This document shows, piece by piece, positions 1-20,679 of a stretch of 43,874 nucleotides of DNA. A program made the position numbers and the translations under genes. The notes beneath the pieces are model-generated. The model was given only the letters and a program-made list of their open reading frames with translations. It did no database searches and was not told the DNA's origin. Source of the stretch: Candidatus Desulfofervidus auxilii (GTDB taxonomy: Bacteria; Desulfobacterota; Desulfofervidia; Desulfofervidales; Desulfofervidaceae); assembly GCA_030262725.1 (NCBI GenBank), contig JAJSZS010000016.1, positions 1,289 through 45,162 of the forward strand, given 5' to 3'. Numbering within the stretch: the first letter of the stretch is position 1; every line of letters begins with the position of its first letter.

Positions 1-77
1 AACATCCAAATGGTGGTTTTGGACATTTATCAAATCAACAACCTCAAGCACAATTTACTTATAATGCTATTGTACTT
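1..77 (+). repeat. Direct repeat copy 1 (77 bp, perfect)
   Basis: Bases 1-77 recur without a mismatch at 289-365, an offset of 288 bp or 96 codons. The repeat may extend left beyond the window. It encodes one GGF toroid unit. Confidence 0.95.
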
Positions 78-1886
78 CTTAAGGAATTAGGAGTATTAAA
101 CAAAATTGACAAGAATAAGCACATAAACTGGCTTAAATTACTTCAAACACCAGATGGTGGATTTAGTCATATTCCAGGTCAATCGTCTCATATCACTCAC
201 ACTTATTTTGCAGTCAAAGCTTTAATAGAATTAGAATCACTGAATCAGATAAATAAAGATAAACTCATCCAGTTCATATTATCCTGTGAACATCCAAATG
301 GTGGTTTTGGACATTTATCAAATCAACAACCTCAAGCACAATTTACTTATAATGCTATTGTACTTTTAAAAGAGTTAAAGACATACTTCATAGAGCTATA
401 TGATAGATGTATTCAAGAATTAGAGAAAATTTCTGATCCCGCAAAAATAGATGAATTAGTAAATAATATTATAAGTGCTCAAGTTTTGGATGATAAATTA
501 GTTAATACGATAAAAAAAGAAGTTGAGAATTTAAAAAACATTACAAAAAATAACTTACTGGAAAAGATTTTAAATATGATTCCGAATTTTGTATACTTTG
601 ATAGTATAGATTTTATAGGGGATTCAATCCCTCTTGACGAATACTTAAAGAATACAGAAAAGTATAAAACTTTTACAAACTTATTTAAATTAGCAGGATT
701 AGACGTTAAAAAAATAAGAGCTACAAGAACACCTCATACTATAAGTCGCCTTTTTAAAAGTGCTACAGCAAAAATTACAGGAATGATTAATGAATTCTGG
801 GAACAAGAAGAAGTAACTGTAAACTTAGAAATGATTGGGGATAAAATATTAGTATCTATTGATGATGCGCTCGGTGCCAAAGCTGATCCACCTAGTAAAA
901 GAAGCGATGGTTTTAGATGGTTTTTATCTTTTTACATCAATTTTATGGCAGGAACAAAAGGAGAATTAAAAAATACAGTTTTACTTTTGGATAATCCGGG
1001 ATGGGTATTACATCCTTCTGGACAAAAAGATTTGTTAAAAGCTTTAGAAGAAATAGCAAAAACAAATCAGATAATAATTGCTACACATTCTCCATTTTTA
1101 ATTGATAAAAACAAATTGGAAAGAATAAGGATTGTTGAAAGAAAAGAAGATGAGGGAACAAAAGTATATGAAAAATTCTGGGATTCACTATATGATTCGT
1201 TGCAAGTAATCAGAGCAAGTATTGGAGCAGATATATCAGATTCTCTCTTTGGTCATAAAAACAACATCATTGTAGAGGGATTTTCAGATAAAGTGTATTT
1301 GGAAGCTATGAACAATTATTTAAAAAGAAAAGATAAGAAAACAATTGGCATTGATAAAGTTATGATCATCGGTGCGGGAGGAGCTGATAAAGTTCCTTAT
1401 CTTGTAGCTTGGCTTAAAGCCGAAAGGTATAATTCATTGGCTTTACTTGATGCGGATAACGAGGGAAGGAGGGTTATTCAAGAAATAGAAAATAGGAATA
1501 TTGAGATAGATAAGGATTTAGATGTTTTAATGTTAAATGAAATTTCTGAGGAATTCAAAGGAAAAGATATAGAAATAGAAGACTTATTTGATGAAAAGTT
1601 TTACAATATGGCTGTCAATAAAGCATACAGAGAGGTCTTTGAAAGTAAATTAAAAAAACTTGAGATTAAATTGGAAGAAATACCTACAAATGGTTTGAAA
1701 ACTAAAAGATATTACAAGTTTTTTAAAAACAATAACTTAGGAGGATTTGATAAAGTTAAAGTTGCATTAGAAATTAAAAGAATCATAAAGGAAAGAGAAG
1801 AAGTAGCAGAAGAAACAATTTCTAATTTTGAAAAATTATTTGAAAAAATCAAAGAAAAATTCAAGAAAAAAGGGATAGAATTGTGA
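1..1886 (+). CDS. Toroid-repeat / OLD-family ATPase-TOPRIM nuclease fusion, 5' partial
   Basis: The frame is open from the first base, so the gene begins upstream; the first ATG in view (486) is internal. Codons from base 3 encode squalene-cyclase/prenyltransferase-type repeats: three GGF cores spaced exactly 48 residues apart, each followed by a TY(N/F)A helix. After about 126 residues comes an OLD/AAA_15 ATPase C-terminal half: a signature-like RSDGFRWFLSF, a Walker B strand LLLDNPG at 981-1001, the THSPFL switch, then a TOPRIM domain with VEGFSD near 1272 and DADN at 1449-1460. OLD proteins are ATP-dependent nucleases used in phage defence and are often linked to type I R-M loci (the Rlo genes). 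No Walker A motif is visible, so it must lie upstream or be missing. The usual catalytic Glu after the Walker B Asp is Asn. Antiviral function is inferred from family and neighbours only. Confidence 0.75.
   Translation, partial: HPNGGFGHLSNQQPQAQFTYNAIVLLKELGVLNKIDKNKHINWLKLLQTPDGGFSHIPGQSSHITHTYFAVKALIELESLNQINKDKLIQFILSCEHPNGGFGHLSNQQPQAQFTYNAIVLLKELKTYFIELYDRCIQELEKISDPAKIDELVNNIISAQVLDDKLVNTIKKEVENLKNITKNNLLEKILNMIPNFVYFDSIDFIGDSIPLDEYLKNTEKYKTFTNLFKLAGLDVKKIRATRTPHTISRLFKSATAKITGMINEFWEQEEVTVNLEMIGDKILVSIDDALGAKADPPSKRSDGFRWFLSFYINFMAGTKGELKNTVLLLDNPGWVLHPSGQKDLLKALEEIAKTNQIIIATHSPFLIDKNKLERIRIVERKEDEGTKVYEKFWDSLYDSLQVIRASIGADISDSLFGHKNNIIVEGFSDKVYLEAMNNYLKRKDKKTIGIDKVMIIGAGGADKVPYLVAWLKAERYNSLALLDADNEGRRVIQEIENRNIEIDKDLDVLMLNEISEEFKGKDIEIEDLFDEKFYNMAVNKAYREVFESKLKKLEIKLEEIPTNGLKTKRYYKFFKNNNLGGFDKVKVALEIKRIIKEREEVAEETISNFEKLFEKIKEKFKKKGIEL
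289..365 (+). repeat. Direct repeat copy 2 (77 bp, perfect)
   Basis: Second copy of bases 1-77. The match ends at 365, where t replaces c at 366 relative to 78. The encoded protein stays identical for a few more residues through synonymous codons. Confidence 0.95.
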
Positions 1887-2068: not shown

Positions 2069-3214
2069 ATGAAAGAGAGCAGAAATAATGTGTTAAAGGA
2101 ATGGAAGGAAGTAAAATTAGGTGAGGTTTTAGAATTAAAAAATGGCGAAAGGCCAAAGATAAATGATTATGGCATTATTCCAGTTTACGGAGCTAATGGG
2201 ATAATGGGGAAAACAAATGATTTTTTAGTAGATAATGATTTTACGATTATAGTTGGACGAGTGGGAGCTTCAGGCGAAATTCATTTAGCCAAAGGTAAAG
2301 TATGGATAAGTGACAACGCTATTTATAGTCAAAGTTATAAAAGTAAGAAAATTCATTTGCCATTTTTGTTTTACTTACTTACTTTTAAAAATCTTAAACA
2401 ATTTGCTACAAAAACTACTCATCCAATAATTACTCAAAGTTTTCTCAAAAATCTTCCGATCCCCCTCCCTCCCCTTCCTGAACAACAAAAAATTGCTGAG
2501 ATTTTAAGCACTGTGGATAGTGCGATTGAGAAGGTAAATCAAGCCATAGAGAAGACCCAGAGGTTGAAAAAGGGCCTGATGCAGGAGTTGTTAACAAAAG
2601 GCATTGGGTATAATGAATTTAAAGATACAGAAATCGGCAGGATACCGAAGGAGTGGGAGGTGGTGAGGCTAAAAGAATCGGAAGAGATAAAGCTTATAAT
2701 GGGACAGTCTCCGCCGGGAAAAAGTTATAACAAAGAAGGAAAAGGACTCCCATTTATACAAGGAAAAGCCGAGTTTGGTAATATGTATCCCTCCGCTATA
2801 TTATGGACTACTCAGCCTACAAAAATAGCAGAAGAAGGAGATGTTTTAATTTCTGTAAGGGCACCGGTTGGAGATGTTAATATATGCCCTTATAGGTTAT
2901 GTATAGGGAGAGGGTTGGCAGCAGTAAGAATAAAGAAAGGTTCTAATATATTTTATTTTTATTGGTTTCAAAAGGAAAAACAACACATTGAAAATATTGG
3001 TAAAGGTTCCACCTTTAAGGCAGTCACTAAAGATGAATTATCCAATCTTTTTATTCCATTTCCCCCACTTCCTGAACAACAAAAAATTGCTGAGATTTTA
3101 AGCACTGTGGATAAAAGGCTTGAGCTTTTGAAGAAAAAGAAAGAAAAATTAGAAAGGATTAAGAAAGGTTTGATGAATGATTTGCTTACAGGGAAAAGGA
3201 GGGTAAAAGTATGA
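2069..3214 (+). CDS. hsdS: Type I restriction-modification specificity subunit S
   Basis: The 381-residue protein has the two-halved HsdS plan: a target-recognition domain (about residues 10-135), a conserved helix starting PLPPLPEQQKIAEILSTVD (about 137-180), a second TRD (about 195-330) and a second copy of the same helix at the C-terminus. In the family each TRD reads half of a bipartite DNA site, and the helices set the spacing and contact HsdM. The length is near the usual 380-450. There is no clear Shine-Dalgarno before the ATG. The 3' end overlaps the next gene by ATGA, implying coupled translation. hsdM is not in the window; upstream of the OLD-like gene is the likely place. Confidence 0.93.
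   Translation: MKESRNNVLKEWKEVKLGEVLELKNGERPKINDYGIIPVYGANGIMGKTNDFLVDNDFTIIVGRVGASGEIHLAKGKVWISDNAIYSQSYKSKKIHLPFLFYLLTFKNLKQFATKTTHPIITQSFLKNLPIPLPPLPEQQKIAEILSTVDSAIEKVNQAIEKTQRLKKGLMQELLTKGIGYNEFKDTEIGRIPKEWEVVRLKESEEIKLIMGQSPPGKSYNKEGKGLPFIQGKAEFGNMYPSAILWTTQPTKIAEEGDVLISVRAPVGDVNICPYRLCIGRGLAAVRIKKGSNIFYFYWFQKEKQHIENIGKGSTFKAVTKDELSNLFIPFPPLPEQQKIAEILSTVDKRLELLKKKKEKLERIKKGLMNDLLTGKRRVKV
2474..2519 (+). repeat. 46-bp perfect direct repeat in hsdS, copy 1
   Basis: Encodes the PEQQKIAEILSTVD helix start after TRD1. It is identical over 46 bases to 3068-3113. Such repeats let TRDs be exchanged by recombination in HsdS families. Confidence 0.9.
3068..3113 (+). repeat. 46-bp perfect direct repeat in hsdS, copy 2
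   Basis: Second copy, after TRD2, 594 bp (198 codons) from the first and in the same frame. Confidence 0.9.
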
Positions 3215-3558
3215 AGAGACATCATAATCTCAAAAAATATCTCACTACAACTGAATTAAAAGCTATTGATATGCTTGTTACTAAAATAAGTAAAATATGG
3301 CCAAATACGAAATTTAAACTCTTCGGCTCAAAAGTTACAGGAAACTTTGACGAAGAGTCAGATATTGATATTTTGATACTTTTACCTTGTGAAGTGAAAG
3401 AAGAGATTAGAGAACGAATAATTGATATCGTTTTCAATATAAATCTCAAATTTGATACAAATATAAGTCCTCTTATCCTCTCAGAAAAGGAATGGGTAGA
3501 TCTTTCAGTACTTCCGATTCATTATTTTATAGAAAAAGAAGGAGTTACATATGGATGA
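3211..3558 (+). CDS. MNT-type nucleotidyltransferase (antitoxin-like)
   Basis: 115 residues of the minimal nucleotidyltransferase fold. FGSKVTGNFDEESDIDIL at residues 38-55 gives the Gly-Ser and the paired Asp51/Asp53 that hold the metal, with FDTNIS later as the likely third-Asp strand. MntA relatives neutralise HEPN toxins by adding AMP to them. The start is supported by AGGAGG about 8 bases upstream inside the end of hsdS; the gene overlaps hsdS by 4 bp and the HEPN gene by 8 bp. It is read as the antitoxin half of a pair embedded in the R-M operon; the adenylylating activity is inferred from family. Confidence 0.85.
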   Translation: MKRHHNLKKYLTTTELKAIDMLVTKISKIWPNTKFKLFGSKVTGNFDEESDIDILILLPCEVKEEIRERIIDIVFNINLKFDTNISPLILSEKEWVDLSVLPIHYFIEKEGVTYG

Positions 3559-3958
3559 AAAAGATCAAAAAGAAAAATTTGTTAAATATTGGATAGAGAA
3601 ATGTCTTCAATCTCTTGAGGCAGCAGAAGATGACTTAAGAGCTGGTCGTCTTTCTTTTTCCGTTAATAGAATTTATTACGCATGTTTTTATATTGTCAGC
3701 GCTTTATTGCTCCAAAGAGGTTTTAAATTTAAGAAACATTCTGGAGTTAAAGCTTCGTTCCATAAAAATTTTGTAAAGCAAGGACTTGTAAGCCCTGATG
3801 ATGGACGCTTTTACAACGAGCTATTTGAAGCAAGACAAAGAGGAGATTATATTGAATTTGTTTATTTTGAAAAATCACAAGTAGAGGAATGGTTAAATAG
3901 AGCAAAAATGTTTGTTGATACGGTAAAGAGACTAATTGAACAATTCAAAGAGAAATAA
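3551..3958 (+). CDS. HEPN-domain protein (toxin-like partner)
   Basis: 135 residues, mostly helical, with HEPN landmarks: NRIYYACFYIVSALL (about 37-51), a central KHSGV..FHK stretch, and FEARQRGDY near residue 97. HEPN proteins of HEPN-MNT pairs are typically RNases. The classical Rx4-6H catalytic motif is not clear here: the RQRGDY position lacks the His, so this may be a COG1895-type HEPN protein with altered or absent RNase activity. The start has GAAGGAG a few bases upstream and overlaps the MNT gene by 8 bp. hsdR follows after 14 bp. Confidence 0.82.
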   Translation: MDEKDQKEKFVKYWIEKCLQSLEAAEDDLRAGRLSFSVNRIYYACFYIVSALLLQRGFKFKKHSGVKASFHKNFVKQGLVSPDDGRFYNELFEARQRGDYIEFVYFEKSQVEEWLNRAKMFVDTVKRLIEQFKEK

Positions 3959-3972
3959 GAGGTATCCAAGAT

Positions 3973-6900
3973 ATGAAAATAGCCTTTGATGAGAAACATC
4001 TTGTAGAAGACTATATTATTAAACAACTTGGAGGAAAAGGATGGAGGTTTATCCCTGCCGATGCCCTTGAAAGGGAGAGCTATAAAGAACCTTTGCTAAT
4101 CTCGACTCTTATAAGGGCTATCAGAAGGATAAATAAAGGGCTTGAGATTGGTGATGAAGAGATAAATAAGGTCTTAAATGAGCTAAAACTTGCCGGTACA
4201 GGGATAGAAGGGGCAAAGCGGATTTTAAACTTTTATAAATTAGGTGTTCCAGTAAAGTTTGAGAGAGAAAAGGTAGTAAAATATGTTTACCTCTTTGATT
4301 TTGAAGATATTGAAAATAATGAGTTTATCATCAGCAAACAAATAAATTATGAGGGCAGAGAAAGGATAAGAACCGATATAATGCTCTATGTTAATGGCAT
4401 TCCCCTGGTAAATATAGAGTGTAAGAATCCCACCAATCCCTCAGTAAGCTGGTATCAGGCATATAAGCAGATAAAGGATTATGAGGGCATAGTGCCTGAA
4501 CTTTATAAGTATGTCCAGATAGGGGTAGCGGCTGAGAGCAAGGCCAGATACTTCCCCATTGTCCCCTGGCAAGAGGATACAAAGAAACATGAATGGAGAG
4601 AGGAGTTAAGGGACTCTATAGATGCTACTATTGAGATGCTTAGAAGGGATAAATTGCTGGATATAATCAGAAATTTTCTCTTTTACAGGATTGAAAGGGG
4701 AGAGGCAACAAAGGTTATTACTAGATATATGCAATACAGGGCAGCCAATAAGATAGTGGAGAGGGTGATAAAAAATCTTAGAGGTAAGGAAGAGAAGAAT
4801 AAAGGGCTTATCTGGCACTGGCAGGGGAGTGGGAAGACACTGACCATGATATTTGCGGCAAATAAGCTTTACTATATGAAAGAACTAAAGAATCCCACTA
4901 TATTTTTTATCGTAGATAGGATTGAGCTTGAGGAACAGCTTTATAAAGAATTTTATTCCCTTGATATTCTAAAGCCTGAAGTTATTGGTTCAATAGAAAA
5001 ACTTAAAGAAGTTTTAAGTTATGATGATTATAGAGGTAAAAGAGGAGTATTTATTACTTTAATTCATAAATTTAGACCTGAAGAGCTTAAAGCATTGCAG
5101 AAAGAACTTGAAAATATATCAAAGGAAAAAGAAACAATAATGAATCGTAAAAATGTTATTGCCTTTATAGATGAAGGGCATAGGACACAATATGGTATCC
5201 TTGCTGCCCAGATGAAAGGTATCCTTAAAAATGCATTCTTTTTTGCTCTTACAGGCACACCTATTTCAAAGAAAGGAAGAGATACATATCTTGAATTTAG
5301 TTATCCACCAAAAGAACTTTATCTGGACAAATATTTTATTACAGAATCTTTAAAAGATGATTTTACTGTAAAGATTGTTTATCAGCCAAGGCTTGAAAAA
5401 TTACATCTTAAAAAAGATATGCTTAAGACATTTTTAGAGGTGGAGTTTGAGGAATTACCAGAAGAATTTAGGGAAGAGGTAGAAGAAAAAATAAAGAAGA
5501 GATTAAATGCTATAAAACTATTTCTTGAAAATCCAGAAAGGATAAAGGTAATTGCAAAGGATATTGCTCAACATTTTAAAGAGCATGTTGATGGGAAATT
5601 TAAAGCTATGATTGTAGCATCTAGTAGAATAGCTTGTGTTTTATATAAAAAAGAATTGGATAAGCATTTGCCTTATTATGCTGAAGTAGTGATAAGTTAT
5701 TTTGGTAAGGAAGATGAAGAGCCGATTAAATGGTGTGTGCAAGAGGCACAAGCAAGATATGGAGGTAAAGAAATAGATAATTTGAGAAAAGACATAGTAG
5801 AAAGGTTTAAAGAAGAAGAGTATCCAAAAATCTTGATAGTGACAGATATGCTACTTACAGGCTTTGATGCACCCATTCTTCAAACCATGTATTTAGATAA
5901 ACCACTTAAAGAACATAGACTTTTACAAGCTATTGCAAGAACAAATAGACCTTTTAAGGGATTGAAAGAAGCAGGAGTAGTGATTGATTATGTAGGGGTT
6001 TTGAAGGAATTTAAAAAGGCCCTTGAGATGTATAGCACAGAGGACATCAAAGGGGCATTGTTTAGCTATAATAGCTTGAGAGAAGAGTTTTTAGCATTAA
6101 TTAAGGAAATTCTTGAAATACTTAAAGAAGTGCCAAGAGATTATGAAAGGGAGGTTTTATTAAAAGCAGTAGAAGTGCTTACAACTGATGCTGAAAGAGA
6201 AAAAGAATTTATTGAAAAATATAAAAATCTAAGAAAAATTTTTGAATTCCTTGGGCCAGATGAAGTTAAGCTTGAGTATTTTGAAACTTATAAGTGGATT
6301 TCAGCCATTTATACATATTATATGAAAATAGTAATGCAAAAACCCACTTATGAAGGATATGTACAAAAATATTATGAAAAAACAATCAAGTTTGTGCATA
6401 AAACAACAGAGATAGAAAAGCTTGAAAGAGAACTTCCGGCTATAACCTTTGATGAAGATTATCTAAAAAAACTTGAGGAAAAAGTAAAAAATAAAAAAGA
6501 AAAGGCAGCAAATATTCTTTTTACCTTAAATAGACTTGTCCTTGTTGAAAGGCATAGAAGTCCCATTTATGAATCTTTGGTGGATAAAGTTGAGAGATTG
6601 CTTGAATTATGGAAAGAAAAGACAAAGGATTATGAAAGGATATACATGGAAGGGGTAAAGATAATAGAGGAAATAAATGCTCTTTCTAAGAAACAAAAGT
6701 CTCTTGGTCTTTCAGACCTTGAATATTCAATGCTTCTTACCCTTGAAAGAAGGTTTGGAGAAAATAATAAATTGATAAATGAAGTACAAGGACTTTTTGA
6801 AAAACTTAAAAAATTTATGTTTCCTGGATGGATTAATCAACCTGTAATAAGAAAGGAAGTAGAAAGGGAGGTAAGAAGATTTTCAAGGGGTTTCAAAAAT

Positions 6901-6978
6901 AAATATAATCTTTCCCTTCAACAGATTGATGATTTATATGAAAAGCTTATTGAAAATGTAAAGAATTATGGAGCTTGA
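3973..6978 (+). CDS. hsdR: Type I restriction endonuclease subunit R
   Basis: The 1001-residue motor/nuclease subunit. The N-terminal PD-(D/E)xK nuclease shows Asp135 and E149-C-K151. The SF2 translocase follows: Walker A WQGSGKT ending about residue 289, DEGH at 400-403, ALTGTP about 430, LLTGFDAP about 630 and QAIARTNRP about 655. A long helical C-terminus of the kind that contacts the methylase complex completes it. HsdR pumps DNA using ATP and cuts unmodified DNA far from the recognition site, in complex with HsdM and HsdS. All motifs look intact. Arg codons are almost all AGA/AGG, unlike the CGT-rich core genes further right, which supports acquisition by transfer. Confidence 0.95.
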   Translation: MKIAFDEKHLVEDYIIKQLGGKGWRFIPADALERESYKEPLLISTLIRAIRRINKGLEIGDEEINKVLNELKLAGTGIEGAKRILNFYKLGVPVKFEREKVVKYVYLFDFEDIENNEFIISKQINYEGRERIRTDIMLYVNGIPLVNIECKNPTNPSVSWYQAYKQIKDYEGIVPELYKYVQIGVAAESKARYFPIVPWQEDTKKHEWREELRDSIDATIEMLRRDKLLDIIRNFLFYRIERGEATKVITRYMQYRAANKIVERVIKNLRGKEEKNKGLIWHWQGSGKTLTMIFAANKLYYMKELKNPTIFFIVDRIELEEQLYKEFYSLDILKPEVIGSIEKLKEVLSYDDYRGKRGVFITLIHKFRPEELKALQKELENISKEKETIMNRKNVIAFIDEGHRTQYGILAAQMKGILKNAFFFALTGTPISKKGRDTYLEFSYPPKELYLDKYFITESLKDDFTVKIVYQPRLEKLHLKKDMLKTFLEVEFEELPEEFREEVEEKIKKRLNAIKLFLENPERIKVIAKDIAQHFKEHVDGKFKAMIVASSRIACVLYKKELDKHLPYYAEVVISYFGKEDEEPIKWCVQEAQARYGGKEIDNLRKDIVERFKEEEYPKILIVTDMLLTGFDAPILQTMYLDKPLKEHRLLQAIARTNRPFKGLKEAGVVIDYVGVLKEFKKALEMYSTEDIKGALFSYNSLREEFLALIKEILEILKEVPRDYEREVLLKAVEVLTTDAEREKEFIEKYKNLRKIFEFLGPDEVKLEYFETYKWISAIYTYYMKIVMQKPTYEGYVQKYYEKTIKFVHKTTEIEKLERELPAITFDEDYLKKLEEKVKNKKEKAANILFTLNRLVLVERHRSPIYESLVDKVERLLELWKEKTKDYERIYMEGVKIIEEINALSKKQKSLGLSDLEYSMLLTLERRFGENNKLINEVQGLFEKLKKFMFPGWINQPVIRKEVEREVRRFSRGFKNKYNLSLQQIDDLYEKLIENVKNYGA

Positions 6979-15019: not shown

Positions 15020-15946
15020 ATGGGCAAACGTGTTCTTGTTACAGGAGGAACTGGGTTTATCGGTAGTCATCTTGTAGAATGGTTACTTAAAAAGAATTAT
15101 GAGGTTTTTTGTTTGGTAAGGAATCCTGCTCGATTGAGATGGTTAAAAGGGTTACCAGTATATTTAATTATAGGTGATTGTCAAGCAAAGGATTTAAGAT
15201 TGCCTCAGGTAGAGGTTGTTTATCATGTAGCTGGAGTGGTAAAGGCAAAAAAACCTTCTTTATTTTATAATGTAAATTATAAAGGTACAGTAAATCTTGC
15301 TCAAGCAGTCTTAAAACAAAAATTGCCTCTTAAGTACTTTATCTTTATTTCAACCTTAGCTGTTTGTGCTGATTCTCTTTCTCATTATGCTCATAGTAAG
15401 CTATTGGCAGAAAGAGAACTTTTAAAACTTCCTTTACCTCTTATAATCTTTCGCCCAACAGCTATATATGGCCCAAGAGATAAAGAATTTCTTAGTTTTT
15501 GTCGTTTGATTAAGTATGGTTTGGCTCCAATATTAAATCCTGAAGGAATTTTAAGTTTTTGTTATATTGATGATTTAATAGAAATATTAGGTGCTGTTCT
15601 TGAAAAGGAGATTCCTTCTAAAAAGATCTTTGCAGTTTCTGATGGAAAGGCATATAGCTGGGAAGAGGCTTTAAAAATAGTTGCATCTGCTTTGCAAAAG
15701 AAACCAATTTATTTTAAAATTCCAAAAAAATTAACTTATATTTTAGCTTTGATATTTGAAAAACTTAATATTTTTATTAAAGAACCTATAATTTTTAATC
15801 AAGATAAGTTAAAAGAGATCTTTCATAAAAATTGGTTTTGTGATATTTCAGAAATCCAAAAGCTACTAGGTTATACACCAAAGTATGATTTATTTTCAGG
15901 AATGGTAAAGACGATAAATTGGTATCAAAGACAGGGATGGATATGA
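15020..15946 (+). CDS. NAD-dependent epimerase/reductase, probable ceramide reductase (CerR-like)
   Basis: 308 residues, an extended short-chain dehydrogenase. The Rossmann motif TGGTGFIGSHL is at residues 8-18 and the catalytic pair Tyr123/Lys127 in YAHSK. On its own it could reduce or epimerise many substrates. Its position 8 bp before a serine-palmitoyltransferase-like gene and a GNAT gene matches the three enzymes described for bacterial ceramide synthesis in Caulobacter, where an epimerase-like CerR reduces the 3-keto group of oxidised ceramide. It has no clear Shine-Dalgarno; the start is set by the Rossmann strand. Confidence 0.78.
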   Translation: MGKRVLVTGGTGFIGSHLVEWLLKKNYEVFCLVRNPARLRWLKGLPVYLIIGDCQAKDLRLPQVEVVYHVAGVVKAKKPSLFYNVNYKGTVNLAQAVLKQKLPLKYFIFISTLAVCADSLSHYAHSKLLAERELLKLPLPLIIFRPTAIYGPRDKEFLSFCRLIKYGLAPILNPEGILSFCYIDDLIEILGAVLEKEIPSKKIFAVSDGKAYSWEEALKIVASALQKKPIYFKIPKKLTYILALIFEKLNIFIKEPIIFNQDKLKEIFHKNWFCDISEIQKLLGYTPKYDLFSGMVKTINWYQRQGWI

Positions 15947-15954
15947 GGTAAGTC

Positions 15955-17139
15955 ATGGATATTTTTGCAAAATGTTTTAGATTTGCCTCCCAAGTAGAGG
16001 AAGTGAAATCAGAAAGAAAATATTTTTATTTTCGCACCATTTCTTCTATTCAAGGGCCAGAGGTAATAGTAGGGGGACGTCGTCTAATTATGCTTGGTTC
16101 AAATAATTACTTGGGATTAACAGAAGATCCTCGAGTAAAAGAAGCTGCTATCAAAGCAATAAAAAAATATGGAACAGGTTGTGCAGGTTCTCGTCTTCTC
16201 AATGGAACAGTAGATTTACATGAGGCATTAGAGGCTCAAATTGCCTCTTTTTTTAAAAAGGAAGCAGCAATTGTTTTTTCTACTGGTATGCAAGCAAATT
16301 TAGGCACTATCCAAGCACTTTTAACGCAAGATAGTGTTGCCATTTTAGATAAATTTGATCATGCCAGTATTATTGATGGCTGCCGTTTAGGATATGGAGA
16401 GTTTAAACGCTATCCTCATAATGATATGCAAGCATTAGAAAGATTATTACAGAATGAAAAAGAAAAAGCAAAACTTATTATTGTAGATGGTGTATTTAGT
16501 ATGGAAGGGGATTTAGCTAATTTGCCAGAGATTATTCGTCTTGCTCGAAAATATGATGCAAGGGTAATGGTAGATGATGCTCATGGTATTGGTGTAATGG
16601 GGAAAAATGGTCGAGGTATAGCTGAATATTTTGGTTTGGAAAAAGAAGTGGATATTATTATGGGAACATTTAGCAAATCTTTAGCTACTATTGGCGGTTT
16701 TATTGCTACTAAAAAAGAAGTAATAGAATATGTAAGACATGTTGGGCGTGCCCTTCTATTCAGTGCTAGTTTAGCACCTCCTTTAGCAGCTGCGGCTAGT
16801 ATGGCACTTAAAATTATTGAAACAGAACCAGAAAGAAGAGAAAAACTTTGGGAAAATACACGTTTTTGGTTAGATGGTTTAAAAAATCTTGGTTTTGACA
16901 CAGGTTATAGTGTTACACCAATTGTGCCAGTAGTTATAGGTGATCCTAATAAGACATTTGAGATGTGTCGTCATTTAGAAGAAAATGGAGTATTTGTAAA
17001 TGCTGTTGTACCACCTGCTGTCCCACCTGGAAGAGCTCTATTACGTACAAGTGTTATGGCTACTCATACTAAAGAACAGTTAGAAAGGGCACTTGAGGCG
17101 TTTGCTCAAGCAGGTCGAAAAGTAGGTATTATTCCGTGA
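15955..17139 (+). CDS. spt: PLP-dependent alpha-oxoamine synthase, serine palmitoyltransferase-like
   Basis: 394 residues. Hallmarks are GSNNYLGL, the [13 protein letters not shown] loop, [18 protein letters not shown] and the PLP Schiff-base motif [13 protein letters not shown] with Lys241. The GTFSKS form and the ending [27 protein letters not shown] resemble bacterial serine palmitoyltransferase more than KBL or BioF, which usually carry GTLGKA. SPT joins L-serine and an acyl thioester to make 3-ketosphinganine. The acyl-carrier protein gene that sits beside spt in some bacteria is absent here. The gene overlaps the GNAT gene by GTGA. Confidence 0.8.
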
Positions 17140-18260
17140 TAAAAATAAAAAAAGTTATTACTAAATCCCAATGGCAGACATTTTTACACCTTCCTTGGAA
17201 AATTTATAAAAATGATCCATATTGGGTGCCTCCTTTATTAAAGGATGTAAAATTCTGTTTGAATGAAAAAGAGAACCCATTTTATGACCATGCTTATCGC
17301 GAGCTTTTTCTTGCATATAAAAATGAGGAAGCTCTTGGACGTATAGTAGCTATTGTTGACGAAAATTATAATGCTTATCATCATGAAAAAATTGGTTGGT
17401 TTGGCTTTTTAGAAACAGTAAATGATTTTACAGTTATTTCTGCCTTGATAGATATTGTTAAAGAATATTTAGCCCATTTTGGGATAAAATATCTTTATGG
17501 CCCGGTGAATCCTTCTACTAATGAGACTTGTGGTCTTCTTGTAGAAGGTTTTGATGATCCTCCCTGCTTTTTGATGGCTTATAATCCACCATATTATGCT
17601 CAGTTGTTGGAAAAATGTGGTTTTAAAAAAATAAAAGATCTTCTTGCTTATGAAACTTCCTTACCTTTTTCAAAAACTTTACTTCAAAGATTTGAAAATA
17701 TTTGTATTTGTTTAAAAAATCGCTATCCTGAACTAAAGGTCAGACATATTTATATGGAAGATTTTGAAAAAGAGTTAAAACGCATACAAGAAGTTTATAA
17801 TGAAGCATGGTCTAGAAATTGGGGCTTTGTACCTATGACAGAAGCAGAGATAAGAAAGATGGCAGAACGCCTTAAACCTTTAGTTGTGCCAGAGTTTGTT
17901 TGGTTAGCAGAAATAAGGGAAGAACCAATTGCTTTTATGATGTTTTTACCTGATTATTTTCAGGTATTTAGACATTTAAATGGACGTTTTTTTCTACTTA
18001 ATTGGTTAAAATTCTTTTGGTATCGAAGGAAAATAAATAGAATAAGAGTTGTTACTTTAGGGGTTAAAAGGCAATATCATCATAGTGGAGTGGTACCTCT
18101 ATTTCTTCTTCAAGCAGGAAAAACATTATTAAAATTTCCTTATAAACGTCTTGAATTTTCTTGGATTCTTGAAGATAATCTTCCAGTAATTCGTATTGCT
18201 GAGTTAATAAATGCAAGCTTAAAAAAACGATATCGTATCTATGGAATTAAAATAAATTAA
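17136..18260 (+). CDS. GNAT-family acyltransferase, probable bacterial ceramide synthase
   Basis: 374 residues, starting GTG inside the spt stop. The N-half has [16 protein letters not shown] and NPFYDHA, the GNAT core has [21 protein letters not shown], and a [12 protein letters not shown] block suggests the acyl-CoA pyrophosphate loop. Long GNAT proteins of this type act as bacterial ceramide synthase, N-acylating 3-ketosphinganine. The assignment rests on the combination with the reductase and SPT-like genes; alone it would be an unassigned acyltransferase. The next gene has its own promoter, so the operon ends here. Confidence 0.75.
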
Positions 18261-18271
18261 GCAAGACTTTC

Positions 18272-18301
18272 TTGACATAATTAGAAAGACAATATTATAC
18301 T
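18272..18301 (+). promoter_or_regulatory. Promoter with overlapping palindrome before the HDOD gene
   Basis: TTGACA (18272-18277), 18-base spacer, TATACT (18296-18301). A perfect inverted repeat, ACTAAGC-N7-GCTTAGT (18299-18319), begins within the -10 and ends at the ATG, covering the expected transcription start: operator-like. Confidence 0.72.
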
Positions 18302-18319
18302 AAGCAAAAAGAGCTTAGT

Positions 18320-20017
18320 ATGAAAGAAGATATTTCTGAGGTTTCTTTTCCAAGTTTTCCTGCTGTTGTAATGGAACTTTTGCAATATACAGTTAGGGAA
18401 GATGCATGTGCTGAAGGAGCGGAGAGAATTATAAAAAAAGATCCTGCTCTTACAGCGGAGATTTTAAAAATAGCCAATAGCCCTCTTTATGGAAAGGGAA
18501 AGATCAGTAATCTTCGCCATGCTCTTACTTTTTTGGGATTAAATACTTTAAAATATCTAGCTATTACTATTGCTGTTACTGGTGTATTTTCAAAAATGGA
18601 AATGCTTGCTGATGAAACTGGATTTGATTTTACTGAATTTTGGTCTCATTCTTTGCGTATTGCTTCTATTTCTCAACAAATAGCACAAAAGATAAATTAT
18701 CAAGATCCAGAAGAAGCTTTTATTGCTGGTCTTTTACATGATCTGGGTCGTCTTATACTTGTTCAAAATTATCCTAAAAAATATTCAGAAATAGTAGAAA
18801 GTGTAAGTAAAGCAAAAATAAAGTCTTTTGAAAAAGCAGAAGAAGAAATTTTAGGTGTTACTCACACTGAAGTAGGAGCAAAACTTTTAGATTTTTGGAA
18901 TCTTCCTTCTGCATTTGTGGAGGTAGCCCAGTATCATCATCTTTCTTTATCTGAATTAAAAACCACCCTTGTCCAGATTGTTCATATTGCTCACAATATT
19001 GATAGTCTTTCTACCTTACCTCCTTATGACAGACCATTTGCTATGGAAGCAATATTGAGTGAAATACAGCAACATTGGAAATCAACTTGTGAAGATCTTG
19101 AAGAGATTTTAAAAACAGCTGAAATGCAAGTAGAAGTAATAGCTCAACATTTAGGCATCTCTTTGGAGGAGGCTGAGCTTAGAGTAAAGATGCCATTTCC
19201 TGAACAAGCTGAACTTTTAGCAAAACTTCTTATATTTCAAAACATTTGGTCAGATTTAAAAGATTATTCTATTAAAGGTATATTCAATCAAGCTGCTAGG
19301 GCATTGGCATTGGCTTTCGGTGTAAGGAGGTCTCTATATTTTATGTTAGATAAAGAAAAAAATATTTTAAAAGAAGTAACAATTGAAGGATTTCAAAGAC
19401 AACCATTTATTATTGAAAAAAAAGATTTAGTTTGGGAGGCTATTAGACAAAAAAGAATAGTAAGTTTTTTAGAATTAAAGAAAAAAGGTTTTTCTACTTT
19501 AAAAGAAATAGAAAGTTATTTTCCTGCAGATTTTATTATTATGCCTTTGTGGAATGGTGGTGAAATCATTGGTGTGGTTTTGTTGGAAATGTTTTTAGAT
19601 AAAAAAATAAGTTCTCTTTTGAGTTTTATTGCAGAACAAATAGCTACAAAGATAAAGATCTGTTTGCTTACTAAAGAAAGAGAGTTTTTAGTAAAAGAGA
19701 AAGAAAGAATAAGAGAAGCTTATCAAAGGAGTTTAGAAAAATTAATTGAACTGGAAAAAAGAACAGCTGCTATAGAAACAGCAGGTACTATTTCTCATAA
19801 GCTTAATCAATCTCTTACTGTAATTCAAGCTAGAATAGAACTTCTCTTACACAAGATTAAAGATAGAGAAGATATTAAATCTATTGTTAAGAAAGAATTG
19901 GATATTGTATTAGATGAAAGTAAAAAGATGAATGAATTTATTAAAAAATTACTTGAGTTAAAAACATATAAAACAAAATCTTATATTAATGGTGTTGAAA
20001 TTCTGGATGTTGAATGA
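18320..20017 (+). CDS. HDOD-GAF-DHp signalling protein without a kinase domain
   Basis: 565 residues. An HDOD domain (about 1-270) begins with SFPSFPAVVMELL and keeps the LLHDLGR motif. A GAF-like sensor domain covers about 305-440. A coiled coil leads into a histidine-kinase dimerisation helix with ISHKLNQSLTVIQ, His493. Only 72 residues follow and no N, G1 or G2 box of an HATPase domain is present. HDOD proteins usually act as output or scaffold modules. It could be phosphorylated in trans, or the H-box may be structural. ATGA overlap with the DUF434 gene suggests joint expression. Confidence 0.82.
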   Translation: MKEDISEVSFPSFPAVVMELLQYTVREDACAEGAERIIKKDPALTAEILKIANSPLYGKGKISNLRHALTFLGLNTLKYLAITIAVTGVFSKMEMLADETGFDFTEFWSHSLRIASISQQIAQKINYQDPEEAFIAGLLHDLGRLILVQNYPKKYSEIVESVSKAKIKSFEKAEEEILGVTHTEVGAKLLDFWNLPSAFVEVAQYHHLSLSELKTTLVQIVHIAHNIDSLSTLPPYDRPFAMEAILSEIQQHWKSTCEDLEEILKTAEMQVEVIAQHLGISLEEAELRVKMPFPEQAELLAKLLIFQNIWSDLKDYSIKGIFNQAARALALAFGVRRSLYFMLDKEKNILKEVTIEGFQRQPFIIEKKDLVWEAIRQKRIVSFLELKKKGFSTLKEIESYFPADFIIMPLWNGGEIIGVVLLEMFLDKKISSLLSFIAEQIATKIKICLLTKEREFLVKEKERIREAYQRSLEKLIELEKRTAAIETAGTISHKLNQSLTVIQARIELLLHKIKDREDIKSIVKKELDIVLDESKKMNEFIKKLLELKTYKTKSYINGVEILDVE

Positions 20018-20679
20018 AACTTCCTCATCAAGCAATTTCTCATTTACGTTTTTTACTCGATAAAGGATATTCATCTGGACAAGCTTTACAAATAATAGGA
20101 AATCGTTACCAACTCAATTCATGGGAGAGGAAATGGTTAGAAAGAGGAGTTTGTAGTATAAAGCAAGCAAAAATAAGGGAAAGGAAGAAAAAAGGCTTAT
20201 GGCGTTTAAGACAAGCTAAATTGGGAATAGATGGTCATAATGTATTAATTACTATAGAAAGTGCTATTAAAGGAAAACCTCTACTTTTAGCAGATGATGG
20301 TTTTATTAGAGATATGGCTGGTGTTTCAGCCAGTTATCAGCCTAGTTCCACTACAGAAAAGGCTTTAGAATTAATCTTTGAAATTTTAAAGCTTTATCAA
20401 CCTTTATGGCTTGATTGGTACTTTGATGCTCCTCTCTCATTTAGCGGGGAATTAGCAGCAAATGTGCGTAAAAAATTAAAAGATTATCATTTATCAGGCA
20501 CAGCTCAAGCAGTACCTGTGCCAGAACATTATCTCATACATCATGAATTAATTGCTACAAGTGATAGTGCATTAATAGATATATGTTCAGAAGTTATTGA
20601 TTTAGCAGGAGAAGTTTTAAAATTTTGTGGATTTTCTTTTTCTCTTTTTAAATTTAAAAACTTAAATGTAAATGAATAA
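20014..20679 (+). CDS. DUF434-family protein
   Basis: 221 residues. The N-terminal part (LRFLLDKGYSSGQALQIIGNRYQL) matches the DUF434 pattern; the C-terminal part has DGHNVLITIESA, DDGFIRDMAGVS and a TSDSALID ending. Spaced Asp residues (DG, DD, DW, D..D) resemble PIN-like metal sites, but I cannot show a nuclease. Function is unknown. It overlaps the HDOD gene by 4 bp and runs 26 bp into the unknown gene on the other strand. Confidence 0.72.
   Translation: MKLPHQAISHLRFLLDKGYSSGQALQIIGNRYQLNSWERKWLERGVCSIKQAKIRERKKKGLWRLRQAKLGIDGHNVLITIESAIKGKPLLLADDGFIRDMAGVSASYQPSSTTEKALELIFEILKLYQPLWLDWYFDAPLSFSGELAANVRKKLKDYHLSGTAQAVPVPEHYLIHHELIATSDSALIDICSEVIDLAGEVLKFCGFSFSLFKFKNLNVNE

Follow-up and report, generated by a model that had tools for sequence, protein, structure and literature searches.

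A prenyltransferase-type toroid inserted in the ATPase of an OLD-family protein: a candidate infection sensor beside restriction genes

An open frame of Candidatus Desulfofervidus auxilii raises the question of what a ring of the prenyltransferase kind is doing inside an OLD-family nuclease encoded next to type I restriction-modification (R-M) genes. Infection recognition by OLD-family defense proteins is largely open, the clearest case being PARIS, whose OLD-type ATPase detects anti-restriction proteins of phages, releasing a TOPRIM nuclease (PMC11455837). In the protein described here (toroid-OLD), the candidate sensor has a well-known fold and forms a domain of its own, which can be deleted cleanly or produced in isolation; with toroid-free sister proteins as natural controls, sensing would be directly testable. 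Our literature searches, which did not reach some key subscription papers, found neither an earlier description of a toroid-containing OLD nor a paper combining TOPRIM with a prenyltransferase, in agreement with the first-pass annotation, which knew of no equivalent.

Position of the toroid within the gene

The window (the whole stretch of DNA analyzed, 43,874 nucleotides) starts at base 1289 of a contig of 45,162 bases (C16), in a genome assembly of 2.27 Mb and 72 contigs (G000). Its frame 3..1886 is an uninterrupted ORF. In it Pfam places a toroid first (Prenyltrans, PF00432, E 8.8e-21, above cut-off), followed by the C-terminal half of an ABC ATPase (AAA_15/AAA_21) and then by a TOPRIM domain of the OLD-like kind (OLD-like_TOPRIM, likewise over its cut-off). 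The earlier reading of the GGF repeats as toroid-like, and of the following region as an OLD ATPase half with a nuclease, was thereby borne out (Table 1). The gene itself starts at C16:658, 631 bases upstream, and the window begins where it does because a scaffold gap, a run of 100 N (C16:1189-1288), extends up to its first base.

The annotation had left open whether the toroid is inserted between the ATPase lobes or takes the place of the first one; the former proved correct, and the latter is ruled out by the sequence upstream of the gap. The frame beginning at C16:658 encodes an ABC N-lobe (MRIKKIRIKNFLSIIDSG...LLGKNEQGKTNFLKAL; AAA_15, E 1.5e-12) with the intact Walker A motif that had been sought there (LLGKNEQGKTNF), in the same reading frame as the window ORF, and then, still before the gap, the first toroid hairpin (FAFLNQIDKNKHINWLKLLQTPDGGFSHIPG). 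With the N-lobe and its Walker A ahead of the gap, both ATPase halves are accounted for, and the toroid lies between them as an insertion.

The toroid hairpins measure ~48 aa and combine into double units of 96 aa (288 bp). The presence of the gap inside these repeats could be taken as a sign of an assembly chimera, or else of a passive, non-functional repeat insertion. Both gap junctions are in frame, however, and the repeat copies that flank the gap are 96-98% identical in a 288-nt register, which places the gap inside a tandem repeat; it is a tandem repeat left open by the assembly, and unrelated sequence was not joined. Judged by the register, the gap stands for 109+288k nt, so that this assembly does not fix the number of double units; k=1 would bring the toroid to six hairpins. 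No second match to PF00432 occurs anywhere in the genome, which excludes a mis-join with another toroid gene. In an independent assembly, where a join between repeats and ATPase might have come to light, one Archaeoglobales contig carries the entire gene without a break, and the toroid junctions of a third copy are likewise continuous. Together with the purifying selection on the toroid described below, these observations rule out an assembly join, and the broader reading, with its passive insertion, retains next to no probability.

Table 1. Features of the toroid-OLD gene and its downstream neighbors (window positions; C16, contig positions).
Feature	Position	Strand	Remarks
Toroid-OLD gene, 3' part	1..1886	+	627 aa in window
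Toroid (Prenyltrans, PF00432) insert 3' of gap	1..371	+	Last ~2.7 helical hairpins
Repeat copy (C16:1289-1377)	1..89	+	DNA 96% identical to 289-377 (C16:1577-1665), spacing 288
Repeat copy (C16:1384-1467)	96..179	+	DNA 98% identical, across the gap, to C16:1105-1188
Second copy of 89-nt repeat	289..377	+	Toroid end at 'VLLKEL'
Returning helical arm of insert	372..580	+	Then back into ABC fold
ABC ATPase C-terminal half	581..1134	+	Pfam, alignment, fold match
Signature-loop region RSDGFRW	900..920	+	Alignment
Walker B LLLDNP	981..998	+	Asn at 993-995 where most OLDs have Glu
H-loop ATHSP	1080..1094	+	Alignment
TOPRIM nuclease and C-terminal helical part	1260..1886	+	
TOPRIM acidic residues	within 1260..1886	+	VEG..D 1272-1289, DAD 1449-1457
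HsdS, type I R-M specificity subunit	2069..3214	+	
MNT-type nucleotidyltransferase (PDC-S09-like)	3211..3558	+	Probable antitoxin
HEPN protein (PF05168)	3551..3958	+	Probable toxin partner
HsdR, type I restriction subunit	3973..6978	+	

Relatives, descent and turnover of the repeats

The window protein was scanned against one genome per species (GTDB 220), and three relatives were returned. The Archaeoglobales gene, from a MAG (L038), is a single uninterrupted frame of 951 aa (940 aa from the likely start MRIRKVRIRNF), with an identity to the Desulfofervidus protein of 71-76% (N-lobe, 75%; C-half plus TOPRIM, 76%). The insert starts after residue 150 (at 151) in the alignment of both proteins, and in the archaeal one it comprises six GGF hairpins. 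The remaining two relatives are truncated: that of candidate division WOR-3 (L039) consists of the C-half only, being cut at its 5' side, with stop codons ahead of the C-half, and that of Theionarchaea (L040) is cut by the contig end. Directly upstream of the WOR-3 gene lies a pentapeptide-repeat protein (L039 851-1333). A profile search with the C-half revealed a third toroid-OLD in the same phylum as the Archaeoglobales genome (G437), which encodes an N-lobe with Walker A, four hairpins and the Walker B of the other two, so that the domain order first seen in the window recurs in two further genomes. The G437 frame shifts inside TOPRIM (L077 8500-8540), owing to either pseudogene formation or a sequencing error.

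Among the matches inspected from 1,002 genome scans (OLD profile), which covered four phyla, no further toroid-OLD was detected, and the architecture is therefore rare; its distribution is very patchy, close relatives of the carriers lacking it. Viral contigs, queried with the single protein, an alignment and the toroid, contained none either. The alignment query returned 25 OLD or ABC relatives from them; the ten examined were devoid of GGF repeats, and Walker B was readable as DEP in nine. Phage records gave no match to the toroid, none of the plasmid matches to the toroid was annotated as an ATPase, and a viral fold library yielded ABC/SMC-type matches only. No recent donor of the toroid stands out, the stand-alone toroids of the phylum and of Archaeoglobi being 23-46% identical in local alignments.

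In a tree built with the toroid spliced out, the three toroid-OLDs and the two truncated genes form one clade (support 100/99), whose sister group (99/97) consists of four toroid-free OLDs (G362, G547, G793 and G268). The toroid is seen in three of the five members, and no member is known to lack it, the other two being too truncated to tell. The bacterial gene pairs with that of the Archaeoglobales (100/98), a position in the tree that indicates gene transfer between bacteria and archaea.

Comparison of these two genes (NG86) gave a dN/dS of 0.155/1.82, or about 0.09, for a toroid unit and of 0.148/1.39, or 0.11, for the OLD C-part, with dS near saturation; judged by these ratios, purifying selection acts on the toroid as strongly as on the OLD part. 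Units of different genes are 59-74% identical, and the three units kept by the Archaeoglobales gene are just as divergent from one another (59-74%). Within the G437 and Desulfofervidus genes, however, the units are 94-98% identical and hence were recently duplicated or homogenized. The toroid of G437 comprises two units, 94% identical in DNA, although its four hairpins are possibly a minimum, since short-read assembly may collapse near-identical repeats.

Fold of the toroid and affiliation with the OLD family

An AlphaFold2 model of the Archaeoglobales protein reached a mean pLDDT of 84.8, mostly 85-95 in the toroid blocks, with a pTM of 0.50, at which the orientation of the domains is not reliable. 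The model contains twelve helices, i.e., six hairpins, flanked by two helical arms. Residues 152-438 superpose on the beta subunit of RabGGTase (protein geranylgeranyltransferase type II) with Z 33.9 and an rmsd of 1.8 A over 280 residues, and the insert is thus predicted to form a complete alpha6/alpha6 toroid ring, in keeping with the original assignment of the repeats.

So strong a likeness in fold, and in sequence as well (E 8e-33), could mean that an active prenyltransferase or cyclase-like enzyme has been joined to a nuclease. This is very improbable, as two of the catalytic Zn ligands of RabGGTase (D, C and H), namely D and C, align with Q and Q in the toroid, the DxDD cyclase motif is absent from the frames (regex scan), and no prenyltransferase alpha subunit occurs among the profiled genes. 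Since these Zn ligands and DxDD are missing, a role as a binding module is probable for the toroid, and catalysis less likely. Many His, Gln, Thr and Tyr residues stand at the starts of its inner helices (SHIIHTYY, QTQFTYH, SHITNTYF). In contrast to the RabGGTase ring, that of toroid-OLD sits within an ATPase and is built of 96-aa double units. A eukaryotic-type prenyltransferase ring has been placed in a prokaryotic defense-like ATPase, at the position that corresponds to the hinge or hook of SMC/Rad50 ATPases.

The ATPase and nuclease parts carry the features of the OLD family. The Walker A motif reads GKNEQGKT upstream of the gap, in the Archaeoglobales protein and in L061; RSDGFRW and ATHSP align with the signature and H-loop of other OLDs; and a helical segment between the ATPase halves is evident from the alignment and from helices predicted on either side of the toroid. 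The acidic residues of TOPRIM are intact, by alignment, in the Desulfofervidus, Archaeoglobales and WOR-3 proteins. The exception is the acidic pair of Walker B, where D is kept and E is replaced by N or S (LLLDNPG in all three toroid genes, LLLDSPG in the WOR-3 gene). At this position DN or DD occurs in the toroid-free sisters, in contrast to DE in nearly all other OLDs examined, so that the altered Walker B is a trait of the clade and is ruled out as a trait specific to the toroid. ATP hydrolysis might have been lost in the toroid-OLD clade, which is put forward solely as a hypothesis because departures from these motifs are known among OLDs, such as that of Ts OLD at E276 (PMC7049728); nor, with Ts OLD deviating at Walker B too, is the acidic pair treated here as defining the family. 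In several archaeal OLDs and one bacterial OLD (L062, L063, L070, L072 and L064), Asn or Asp replaces the Walker B Glu; these OLDs are possibly slow or non-hydrolyzing.

Like P2 Old and the Class 1 OLD of Thermus scotoductus (Ts OLD, PDB 6P74), toroid-OLD is a single polypeptide with an ABC ATPase interrupted by a helical insert, a C-terminal TOPRIM, Walker A and an H-loop, and of the PADLOC profiles 'Old' fits the entire protein best; unlike them, it has a toroid insert of about 284 aa and the Walker B Asn. Its returning arm lies in the segment that holds the dimerization domain in Ts OLD (alignment, model; PMC7049728). Modeled by itself (pLDDT 78.4), the C-part matched the Class 2 OLD C-terminal regions 6nk8 (Z 11.5) and 6njx (Z 10.7) above full-length Ts OLD (Z 8.6) and GajA (Z about 8), and the C-part of this stand-alone gene fits the Class 2 CTRs, with their helical domain, better than Class 1. 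The Class 2 protein GajA of Gabija likewise combines ATPase and TOPRIM but is distinguished by the lack of the toroid insert, and no GajB/UvrD-like helicase was found among the profiled neighbors in the Desulfofervidus genome, where a contig edge lies upstream, or in G437. No reverse transcriptase, as in retron OLDs (Class 3), was detected among the profiled ORFs. The N-lobe scores best with AriA of PARIS (Class 4), a system also found near R-M genes, and a toroid-free sister matches AriA end to end; in contrast to the separate ariA and ariB genes, toroid-OLD is one fused polypeptide with a toroid insert, and the fused AriAB profile matches only in part (57.6 bits). The sisters, to two of which the Archaeoglobales protein is 46% (G362) and 43% (G793) identical, share the Asn/Asp at Walker B and have a short loop at the toroid site. 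IbfA, another two-domain protein of ATPase and TOPRIM, gives abortive infection, and no toroid is described for it (PMC12111858). By the features tested, toroid-OLD belongs to the OLD family, yet no named class fits cleanly.

Neighborhoods and the possible role of the toroid

The type I R-M setting noted at first sight was confirmed by the HsdS, MNT/HEPN and HsdR genes that follow toroid-OLD. Upstream, the contig ends 657 bp from the gene. The genome has a single strong HsdM match, which ends near the edge of another contig (C5) and is followed by MNT and HepT (L110 187-2809); a single hsdM - toroid-OLD - hsdS - hsdR operon has likely been split by the assembly, although no overlap between the ends of C5 and C16 was found by sequence, and we infer their adjacency. 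In G437, AIPR/AbiU-like and HNH genes lie upstream, and a type II REase and MTase downstream; R-M loci thus host two of the three toroid-OLDs. The Archaeoglobales gene has a transposase-like gene upstream (by its translation) and a tyrosine integrase downstream, in what looks like a mobile-element neighborhood, with no recognized defense gene among the profiled ORFs of its flanks.

We favor, with a probability of about 0.5, the interpretation of this protein as a toroid-gated OLD defense nuclease, in which the toroid would act as an infection sensor at the arm tip, beside restriction systems, on the pattern of PARIS (PMC11455837). The defense role, the sensing of a ligand and allosteric activation are all inferred. 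The ATPase heads would dimerize on ATP and keep the TOPRIM nuclease inactive; the non-catalytic toroid would recognize, in its cavity or on its rim, an infection-related ligand such as a phage protein, a peptide or a hydrophobic molecule; binding would be signaled along the helical arms to the heads; and the TOPRIM domain, thus released, would cleave nucleic acid and so add a second line to the restriction enzymes. Sensing of a peptide, lipid or phage protein by the toroid is plausible in view of its arm-tip position, the lack of a known catalytic motif, purifying selection and the fast turnover of the repeats. Several observations count against this interpretation: toroid-OLDs are present in three genomes only, the TOPRIM of G437 is frameshifted, the pTM of the model is 0.50, the profiled ORFs around the Archaeoglobales gene include no recognized defense gene, and the Cran1 precedent (PMC12796447) means that an OLD ATPase alone is no proof of defense.

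Cran1 of Saccharolobus, an archaeal OLD with a role in the cell cycle (PMC12796447), and the presence of archaea in the toroid-OLD clade are also what would suggest a housekeeping OLD, acting on the chromosome or in the cell cycle, whose toroid binds a host factor. Such a role appears improbable given the very patchy distribution (the OLD profile turned up three toroid-OLDs in about 1,000 genome scans), the R-M and mobile-element neighbors and the transfer between archaea and bacteria.

The toroid might instead be a structural hinge that joins two subunits and senses nothing, comparable to the SMC hinge or to the domain through which Ts OLD dimerizes. It occupies the segment of the Ts OLD dimerization helices (PMC7049728), Foldseek matches of the whole model include cohesin SMC heads, and, with two units visible in G437 and three in the Archaeoglobales gene, the repeat number apparently varies, as a spacer would allow. 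On the other hand, the toroid-free sisters manage without it, and the helical arm segments are retained besides the toroid. Moreover, alpha/alpha toroids usually act through their cavity. On balance, a mere hinge is rather unlikely.

A more far-reaching version of the sensor interpretation, to be regarded as tentative, would define a new class of toroid-gated OLDs, spread among bacteria and archaea through gene transfer. In these proteins the ring would have been recruited as an infection sensor at the hinge position, its near-identical repeats would recombine in copy number, and the state of the Walker B-altered heads would be set by ligand binding and not by ATP turnover.

Further genes near these loci deserve mention. 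Two genes directly downstream of the Archaeoglobales toroid-OLD (273 and 738 aa; L080 4543-7720) have no Pfam or PADLOC match. AIPR is encoded near an OLD in the Halorhabdus tiamatea plasmid pHTIA (L056 23-3916) as well as in G437 (L077 3385-8539), possibly a recurrent pairing. Farther along the window, a row of genes on the + strand (15020-20679) looks like a sphingolipid synthesis locus of bacteria; it includes an SDR/epimerase and, at 15955-17136, a BioF/Kbl enzyme similar to serine palmitoyltransferase.
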